From assembly GCA_007128855.1 (NCBI GenBank), contig SKWQ01000061.1, forward strand, positions 1 to 54,656: a DNA stretch of 54,656 nucleotides. Direction: 5' to 3'. The DNA comes from Balneolales bacterium. GTDB lineage: Bacteria; Bacteroidota; Rhodothermia; Balneolales; Natronogracilivirgulaceae. Each line of letters begins with the position of its first letter. The first letter of the stretch is position 1. Under the pieces are notes generated by a model, which saw only the letters and a program-made list of their open reading frames with translations, was not told where the DNA came from and did no database searches. The position numbers were made by a program, and so were the translations under genes. Shown here one piece after another: positions 52,088-54,656 of this stretch.

Positions 52088-52510
52088 TCAGGCAAACGGA
52101 TCGATGATCTGGAGTGAATAGATCTTTTGCTTGTGCTGCAGATCTTCTGAGTAGAGGACTGAGCAGGATGCTTCCAGGGCGGCGGCAACGATCAGGGCAT
52201 CATAAAATGAGTACTGCCACCGTTCGGAAATGTCCAGTGCACTGCTCACTAATTCACGGCTCGAATATATTTTCCATAGCGGGTGCAGAATATTCTCGAT
52301 ATACTGCCGGCAGTCGTCATGGCTCAGGGATACTGCAAATTTCCTTGTGGCCACGTTTGCAAACTCCTGGACGACCTGGTAGCTGATGCAACTGTTTTGT
52401 TCGCTCAACCCTCTTTCAATGAGCTCTCTTGCGATAGCCTGTTTCGAAGGATTGTTCCCGTCAAAAGAATAGATGATGATGTTCGTATCCAGAAAATATC
52501 TATCGCTCAT
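52088..52510 (-). CDS. VapC-like PIN-domain toxin
   Basis: A 140-residue PIN-domain ribonuclease, probably the toxin of a type II module. Catalytic acidic residues are Asp8 in FLDTNIIIYSFD, Glu49 in YQVVQEF, Asp104 in SFYDALIVAA and Asp123 in YSEDLQ, all intact. VapC toxins cut tRNA or rRNA. It overlaps the upstream antitoxin gene by 11 bases. Unlike the VapC stub at 8937 it is complete. Confidence 0.92.
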   Translation of the reverse strand: MSDRYFLDTNIIIYSFDGNNPSKQAIARELIERGLSEQNSCISYQVVQEFANVATRKFAVSLSHDDCRQYIENILHPLWKIYSSRELVSSALDISERWQYSFYDALIVAAALEASCSVLYSEDLQHKQKIYSLQIIDPFA

Positions 52511-52718
52511 GCATTTCCTCTCGTGTGAATTTTCTACCAGGTGAGGCGTATCCCAACTTCTTCATCACTTCACGATACTCTGAAACGGGACTTTCCAGGG
52601 CGGCATATGTTTCCAGCCATTCCCTGAACCGGTTGTTCAGCGAACTGTTTTCCCGTGCCGCTTTTTCACGAGCTTTGCGGATAAGCGACTCATCGGCGCT
52701 TAAGGTGATGTTTTTCAT
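52500..52718 (-). CDS. Ribbon-helix-helix-type antitoxin
   Basis: A 72-residue small antitoxin, start MKNITLSADESLIRKAREKA, which matches the N-terminal DNA-binding strand-helix of CopG/Arc-like antitoxins; the tail EYREVMKKLGYASPGRKFTR should contact the toxin. It is first in the operon with the PIN toxin. A longer start at 52790 is rejected because it would run through the presumed promoter. An AGTGTACACT palindrome lies about 25 bases upstream. Confidence 0.85.
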   Translation of the reverse strand: MKNITLSADESLIRKAREKAARENSSLNNRFREWLETYAALESPVSEYREVMKKLGYASPGRKFTREEMHER

Positions 52719-53066
52719 AGTATTAAAACATTTTCGTGCTAAAGTGTACACTGTTATCGTGTAATTTAATGGATCTGCTAAAAAAGTCAATCCTTTAGTG
52801 CGAACAATCGAGGAGCGCGCTTCCTGGCAACTGCCATTTCATTGCATCTCAGCATATTATGGAAACAAAATCGATCAGATAACGTATGGAAGGGTTAGAA
52901 CGCAATTATTATCGCGCAGGAACTTCCCGGTTATGGTCATGGATGCGATGCGATGGTCCGGGATGTTGAATGCACTGGTCCGGCATATGCAATGCGCTCA
53001 TGCGTGACACGAGATAGCATTGATGTGGGATGCGTGCTAAATCATAAATATTAATGAGGAAAGGGT
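52719..53066. other. AT-rich intergenic region
   Basis: 348 bases between the divergent antitoxin and the PDZ-hydrolase gene. It holds the candidate TA operator at 52743 and the hydrolase ribosome binding site (GAGGA, 53056-53060). A 69-residue frame at 52798-53007 looks random and is not called. Confidence 0.5.
52743..52752. promoter_or_regulatory. Palindrome AGTGTACACT upstream of TA module
   Basis: A perfect 10-base palindrome 25 bases before the antitoxin start in AT-rich DNA. It fits a self-repression operator of an antitoxin. Confidence 0.45.
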
Positions 53067-54509
53067 ATGGTGATTATGAGATTACGATTTTTTTACATTG
53101 CATTGGTTGCTTCCGCTTTGTGTGTGGCTGCTGAACCGGCCTGGAAAGTATCGGAGGGGGCTGCCTGGGAATCGTCACAGATGCAGGAATTGCGGGCACG
53201 TGCCTGGATGGGAACACGATTTGAAATCACTGGAGAAACCCCGGAGCAGGAAGTCCCGGTTGACAGTGAAGCGGATCAGGGCGCAGTGGCCGGACTGCTT
53301 GTGGAAGAGGTGCTGGGCGGCACCGGCGAGCGCCTGGGTCTTGTGCCGGGTGACCGCCTGCTGGCTCTGAACGGACAGCTGGTTGGGGATATGTCCACCC
53401 TGCGTTCCATTATTTCCGACAAAAGGGAGGGAGATCCTGTGACCGCGACGATTGTCCGCGATGGAGGGGAGCACATCCTGGAAGGTACGTTCGCATCCCG
53501 TGGGCCGGAAACGCATCCAAACTCAGAGGTCATCTATACCTCCGCGCCGTTCCGCGACGGGTTGCTGCGGGTGATCATCAACAAACCGGCGGGTGAGGAG
53601 CCTATGCCGGCGCTGCTGTTCATCCCGGGCTATACCTGTGCCAGCATCGAGCATTTCCGCGAAAACCACCCGTACAAGAGGATCATAGATGCTTATGTGG
53701 ATGCCGGTTACGTGACCCTGCGCATCGAAAAAAGCGGGCTGGGGGACAGCTGGAACACCCCGGAGTGTGCTTCCACCGACCTACTTGATGAGATCGAGAG
53801 TTTTGAGCAGGGGCTGAAGAAGCTGAAGTCCCTGCCATACGTGGATCCGTCCCGCATCATTATTTATGGACATTCGATGGGCGGGGTGGTGGCACCGGCC
53901 ATAAGCGCCCGTCACGATGTGGCCGGTGTGATCGCATACGGAACCACGGCTCTGTCCTGGTTCGAGTATTTGCTCGGTCTGGTTCGGGTGCAGAACGAAC
54001 TGGCGGGTATGGATCCCATCGAACACGAGCAATCTGTTGTCGACACATACGAAATGTATTATCGCTTCTATATCCAGGGGGAATCACTGGAGGATATGGC
54101 CTTGGAGGAGCACCTGGACACTCTGTTGCGATCGAGGATGAACTACGACGACGAGGGGCGCATTTACGGGCGGAATCCGGAATACTGGCGTCAGATCCAG
54201 CATCAGCCTCATCTGGTGAACTGGAAAAACACGACGGCGCAGGTGCTGGTGCAGTTCGGCGAGTCCGATTTCCAGGCCTATTCGCTTTCAGCGCACGAGC
54301 AGATCGTCAAGACCGTCAACCATTATCATCCCGGAAATGCCACGCTGGCGGTTTTCCCGCTGACCGATCATTACTTTGCGAAGTCGGGTACCATGCAGGA
54401 GGCCTACGACAAGCTGATGGGCGGACAGGTGCTTCAGCTGTTTGATGAATACAATCCGGAGGTGGGGAATTCGGCGGTGACATGGAGCGACGGGGTGGTG
54501 CGGATGTAA
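53067..54509 (+). CDS. Exported PDZ-domain alpha/beta hydrolase
   Basis: A 480-residue protein with a signal peptide (RFFYIALVASALCVAAEPA), a PDZ domain (about residues 70-150; LGLVPGDRLLALNGQLV and IVRDGGEHILEG) and a C-terminal alpha/beta-hydrolase domain. The hydrolase has ALLFIPGYTCASIE, the nucleophile elbow IIYGHSMGGVVAP (Ser about 270), the acid in QFGESDFQAYS (Asp about 401) and His in PLTDHYFAKSG (about 435). The PDZ part may guide peptide or protein ends to the active site. ATG 53067 is supported by GAGGA upstream. It is a single gene between the VapBC module and the recombinase. Confidence 0.9.
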   Translation: MVIMRLRFFYIALVASALCVAAEPAWKVSEGAAWESSQMQELRARAWMGTRFEITGETPEQEVPVDSEADQGAVAGLLVEEVLGGTGERLGLVPGDRLLALNGQLVGDMSTLRSIISDKREGDPVTATIVRDGGEHILEGTFASRGPETHPNSEVIYTSAPFRDGLLRVIINKPAGEEPMPALLFIPGYTCASIEHFRENHPYKRIIDAYVDAGYVTLRIEKSGLGDSWNTPECASTDLLDEIESFEQGLKKLKSLPYVDPSRIIIYGHSMGGVVAPAISARHDVAGVIAYGTTALSWFEYLLGLVRVQNELAGMDPIEHEQSVVDTYEMYYRFYIQGESLEDMALEEHLDTLLRSRMNYDDEGRIYGRNPEYWRQIQHQPHLVNWKNTTAQVLVQFGESDFQAYSLSAHEQIVKTVNHYHPGNATLAVFPLTDHYFAKSGTMQEAYDKLMGGQVLQLFDEYNPEVGNSAVTWSDGVVRM

Positions 54510-54513
54510 TGAG

Positions 54514-54565
54514 CGGATGGATTGTGCGTATGGATTGTACGGATGGATTGTGCGTATGGATTGAT
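54514..54565 (+). repeat. 13-bp tandem repeat, four copies
   Basis: Four copies of the 13-base unit CG(G/T)ATGGATTGTN alternate as a 26-base dimer, directly after the hydrolase stop and just 3' of the recombinase gene. Confidence 0.85.
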
Positions 54566-54573
54566 TCGTCTGG

Positions 54574-54656
54574 CTAAATCAGGGACGTATCCAGCGGACT
54601 TTTCACCGCATGTCCGCCTGTTTTCAGGACGTGCGTATAGATCATGGTGGTTTTGA
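54574..54656 (-). CDS. Tyrosine recombinase C-terminus, integron-integrase-like (partial)
   Basis: The last 26 residues of a minus-strand gene that continues beyond the right edge. It reads KTTMIYTHVLKTGGHAVKSP followed by LDTSLI and a stop (TAG at 54574-54576). This matches the C-terminal end of integron integrases (the TTMIYTHVLxxGGxxVxSPLD pattern, as in IntI1), including the catalytic Tyr in MIYTHV. With this orientation, the start of the gene, and any attI site and cassettes, would lie to the right of the window. The fragment is too short to exclude other tyrosine recombinases with the same end. Confidence 0.75.
   Translation of the reverse strand, partial: KTTMIYTHVLKTGGHAVKSPLDTSLI

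Follow-up and report, generated by a model that had tools for sequence, protein, structure and literature searches.

The window analysed here, 54,656 nucleotides of DNA from a Balneolales bacterium, is the entire contig C207 (SKWQ01000061.1, assembly GCA_007128855.1) of a fragmented genome that comprises 287 contigs and is 88.75% complete. At its right edge lies the 3' end of a gene assigned to the integron integrases, intI, on the minus strand (54574..54654), identified by translation, by the family model TIGR02249 and by comparison with congeners. The last 26 codons (54654..54577) and a TAG stop (54576..54574) read in minus-strand translation as KTTMIYTHVLKTGGHAVKSPLDTSLI followed by the stop, and include the catalytic-tyrosine motif MIYTH. 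The frame runs off the end of the contig, which stops inside intI because the window is one whole contig of a fragmented assembly; no overlap of this end with the other contigs of the genome was found, and a profile search detected no further piece of intI elsewhere in it. Tail to tail with intI, and outside the integron, stands a gene of PDZ / alpha-beta hydrolase type (53067..54509, plus strand), recognised by domain matches and by comparison with congeners, in which it is kept. In one of these, G006 (L220), the hydrolase gene is broken up into several parts that lie in different frames. The repeat search placed a 13-bp tandem repeat of 5.1 copies (54498..54563) between the hydrolase end and the intI stop. 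Hence, the range 54514-54656, originally described in full as integrase-like, is coding only in 54574-54654, whereas 54514-54573 is intergenic and consists mostly of the tandem repeat.

Further to the left, a PIN-domain gene (52088-52510) forms a VapBC-like pair with a small upstream frame (52088-52790, minus strand) within a dip in GC content, 0.46 at 52250-52999 versus about 0.60 to its left. The AT-rich segment with a toxin-antitoxin gene and repeats, which the preliminary description had reported near the integrase, is thus partly borne out, but its reading as an accessory boundary is not supported in that form: the 1.4-kb hydrolase gene common to congeners parts the PIN segment from intI, and covariance-model searches found no attC site in the window, including beside the PIN-domain gene (52088-52790). 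The gene adjoining intI does not look accessory. Comparison of the hydrolase region with plasmids gave no match, an Rfam search of the window returned none either, and a tRNA search of the window found none.

The tail of the frame matches TIGR02249 with 23 of its 26 residues, at model positions 292-314 of 315 (28.4 bits, E 9.9e-7), and therefore corresponds to the C-terminus of the model, catalytic tyrosine included; the curated cut-off of this model, set for whole proteins, is 265 bits. A second model of integron integrases, NF011946, gives 22.2 bits (E 6.6e-5), and the search of NCBIfam with the tail listed no family beyond these two, while the Pfam search with this very short piece yielded no match. 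The integron-integrase matches exceed what chance would give. Two other proteins of the same genome, encoded on contigs C171 and C129, match TIGR02249, both with Xer-type ends. By itself the tail would be no proof, since SPLD or SPIE ends occur in recombinases without the IntI-specific domain as well; in the same order, eight loci (L212-L219) encode recombinases without the IntI-specific stretch whose ends are SPLD, SPIE or SPVE. These proteins also show a near-constant short gap. Could the window end in a XerA-like tyrosine recombinase of this kind, with SPLD reached by chance? We compared the tails of 76 proteins, namely those from the fetched loci that showed both motif patterns. Of these, 66 have the box I-box II gap of about 133 residues typical of IntI and tail scores of 74-111, and the 10 with a shorter gap score 6-71, so that every long-gap protein surpasses the best short-gap one. 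The focal tail agrees in 21 of 21 residues with that of a full IntI, encoded by congener G005, which scores 111 against the maximum of 71 among XerA-like tails. The full G005 protein reaches 431.7 bits with TIGR02249 and aligns end to end (residues 7-318, E 2.3e-84) with IntI4 (PDB 2a3v), an alignment that reveals the IntI-specific additional domain around patch III. Moreover, the last 79 bases of the window (54578..54656, minus strand) are identical in base comparison to the intI 3' end of congener G008 (contig C142), whose 89-codon fragment scores 137.7 bits with TIGR02249 versus 92.6 with XerD, the next model outside the integron family. It is this combination, 79 of 79 terminal bases shared with the G008 fragment and 21 of 21 residues shared with the full G005 protein, that decides the identity of the tail. 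The tail is therefore well supported, by sequence comparison, as that of an IntI, and the integron-integrase-like end first noticed at the window edge is genuine; a XerA-like origin we regard as scarcely credible.

Related bacteria of the order have genuine integrons, with complete integrases and cassette arrays. Full IntI proteins over the TIGR02249 cut-off are present in 69 of the 146 related genomes searched. A strict text search for attC sites found one palindrome (L064) and a relaxed one found three sites; both have been superseded by covariance models. The first of these, R1, was based on 35 attC sites detected in the stretches upstream of intI and, at E up to 0.01, recovered 131 attC sites in 21 of 22 regions beside intI, all on a single strand within each region. 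In their alignment, which was fitted to a related structure and so biases the pairing statistics in that structure's favour, 88.2% of the pair cells are standard, versus 77.6% after shuffling and 29-39% when slid, and the covariation score is 0.286 versus 0.114 in shuffles. Changes on both sides, which are hard to obtain by structure fitting, occur in 13 of the 16 inner pairs. On one arm, the bases in columns 20 and 29 are unpaired, in keeping with the extrahelical bases of attC. A second model, R2, made from the 131 sites, gives matches in 14 of the 21 genomes when E values up to 1 are admitted, including the focal one and congeners G004, G007, G008 and G009; the genome searches scored 150 of the 229-551 candidates in each case, so sites may be missed. 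Judging from translations, the cassettes at R2 sites include toxin-antitoxin genes of RelBE, HigBA and PIN type. Upstream of intI, AGTTATAGTGCG is common to G012, G017 and G019, and a related GTTA block occurs in G013 and G015. This conserved attI-like block, found in the five family relatives about 160-270 bases upstream of intI, is read as a putative attI. In relatives, the putative attI and the cassettes lie on the 5' side of intI, which is the layout that the preliminary description had predicted.

Since the focal intI is transcribed leftwards, the start of the gene, attI and any cassettes are expected beyond the contig end, on its right. The standard integron mechanism would apply: IntI, as a tyrosine recombinase, would recombine attI with the attC of a circular cassette, this attC taking the form of a single-stranded hairpin, and could excise cassettes again at attC. 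We infer that the focal intI is probably complete and active, with attI and cassettes directly to its right, and each of these recombination steps is likewise presumed. We are confident, short of certainty, that the right edge of the window is the 3' end of a Balneolales intI whose start, attI and any cassettes lie beyond the contig end.

Cassette DNA appears to be present in the focal genome. A single attC site was detected on contig C8 (L118 4303-4392, minus strand) with the independent model R2 (32.3 bits; E 0.0019, calculated for one genome), while a search of the genome with R1 found none; the site scores 54.4 bits with a further model, R3, a value left out as evidence because it is circular, the C8 site being itself included in R3. 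The site stands behind the end of an antitoxin-like gene, the last 38 codons of which have a translation identical to that in the cassette before the first attC of G013. Next on C8 is a redoxin (AhpC/TSA) gene (L118 3669-4253) whose frame closes with NNSFKPTQFRGTA immediately ahead of a GTTAGGC, as frames that run into a short attC do; we take this GTTAGGC to resemble such a site. The connection of this cassette DNA with the window we infer.

Some stem pairs of the C8 site are broken, and it is the one attC found in a genome whose integrase-bearing window yielded none, as would be expected if the focal intI were solitary or decayed, without a functioning cassette array (In0). Against this, congeners do hold attC sites, and contig breaks in the group tend to fall on the attI side of the gene, so that arrays are lost from such assemblies. 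Among the IntI rows over the cut-off, 13 of 38 on the plus strand begin less than 500 bases from the contig start (the attI side), as opposed to none of 40 on the minus strand (the 3' side), in counts that were read by hand from the coordinates of the 146-genome search and cover contig starts. That integrons are split between contigs in draft genomes is also stated in the part of the IntegronFinder 2.0 report consulted (PMC9024848). We judge a solitary or decayed intI distinctly unlikely.

The position of the gene raises a separate question: How did an intI come to lie beside the hydrolase gene? Among nine loci of the family examined, intI adjoins the gene for glutaminyl-tRNA synthetase (GlnRS) in seven (G005, G008, G009, G012, G013, G017 and G019), and the stretches fetched for the other two, G014 and G015, show no such arrangement. 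The focal GlnRS-DUF1648 locus, on contig C107, continues for about 900 bases without intI and has another gene instead. A gene near intI in G014 is a homologue of the focal gene that follows DUF1648 (L066 1602-2129; L130 11286-11906), a hint that the GlnRS site serves as a common point of insertion. A different gene follows the hydrolase in congeners G001 and G009, and a search of the focal genome did not recover the G001 gene. The G008 intI occupies the ancestral GlnRS site, and its shared part is 85% identical to that of G005 and 87% to that of G009. At such levels the chance of 79 identical bases would be about 4e-6 to 2e-5, a figure that is raised by the 91% identity with G005 over this short, conserved end. 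So low a chance points either to a recent transfer or relocation or to an artefact of the contig end; the off-site intI is one of relocation, acquisition or such an artefact.

In the last case, the final 79 bases would derive from the intI of another, G008-like species of the sample, and the hydrolase gene of the focal genome would have no intI beside it. The perfect identity to G008 falls at the extreme end, even though the G008 intI differs by 13-15% from the two other congeners over the same part, and the divergence between the focal genome and G008 over SerA-GlnRS is about 17%; the intI-free GlnRS locus, as well as the other gene behind the hydrolase in G001 and G009, fit the same explanation. 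However, the bridging bases 54510-54573, compared with 40 genomes at E 0.01, match nothing other than a single 24-base stretch (92%), so that a false join is not explained by shared sequence. A de Bruijn assembler also requires reads across each step. Separately, 79 bases might equal an assembler word length; the only study of the genus that we identified ran MEGAHIT with increments of 10 to a maximum of 121, according to the part consulted (PMC6704655). We consider an artefact unlikely on balance. Somewhat tentatively, it is possible that intI, or the whole platform, moved or was acquired from the GlnRS site to the hydrolase site, recently enough for its end to be identical to that of another species. 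If true, an integron of sedentary type would be able to pass from species to species within a community, with no known transposon to carry it.

These findings place a cassette-capturing system in a Balneolales genus of soda lakes, a habitat deduced from one named member. Integrons are known in Bacteroidota, and one complete integron has been recorded in Salinibacter, as far as the parts consulted of the respective sources go (PMC8618304; PMC9024848). Among the papers listed by our literature searches, none was a study of integrons in Balneolales, a host group in which, as noted, 69 of 146 genomes encode a full integron integrase. The position of the focal intI also makes it a straightforward example in which to ask if chromosomal integrons can relocate. 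Overall, the focal intI is an ordinary member of a known integron system at an unusual chromosomal place.

XerA/XerC-like recombinases share the tyrosine recombinase C-terminus, in some cases with an SPLD end, but differ in their shorter box I-II gap and lower tail score. With the known IntI proteins (TIGR02249; IntI4, PDB 2a3v) the window has its C-terminal sequence in common, and G005 the whole length with the IntI-specific stretch; in contrast to them, the window contains only 26 codons; the IntI-specific domain lies outside the contig, as do the remaining catalytic residues. The nearest full Balneolales protein, that of G005, is at most 56% identical to its best named relatives among the matches listed outside its own record. 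Relatives of IntI are also encoded by 20 IMG/VR contigs (L221-L240), with 39-66% identity. The focal array is unassembled and the Balneolales hosts have an attC sequence family of their own, which sets them apart from known sedentary chromosomal integrons; with these, nevertheless, the relatives share long arrays of similar, one-strand attC sites beside intI, together with toxin-antitoxin cassettes.
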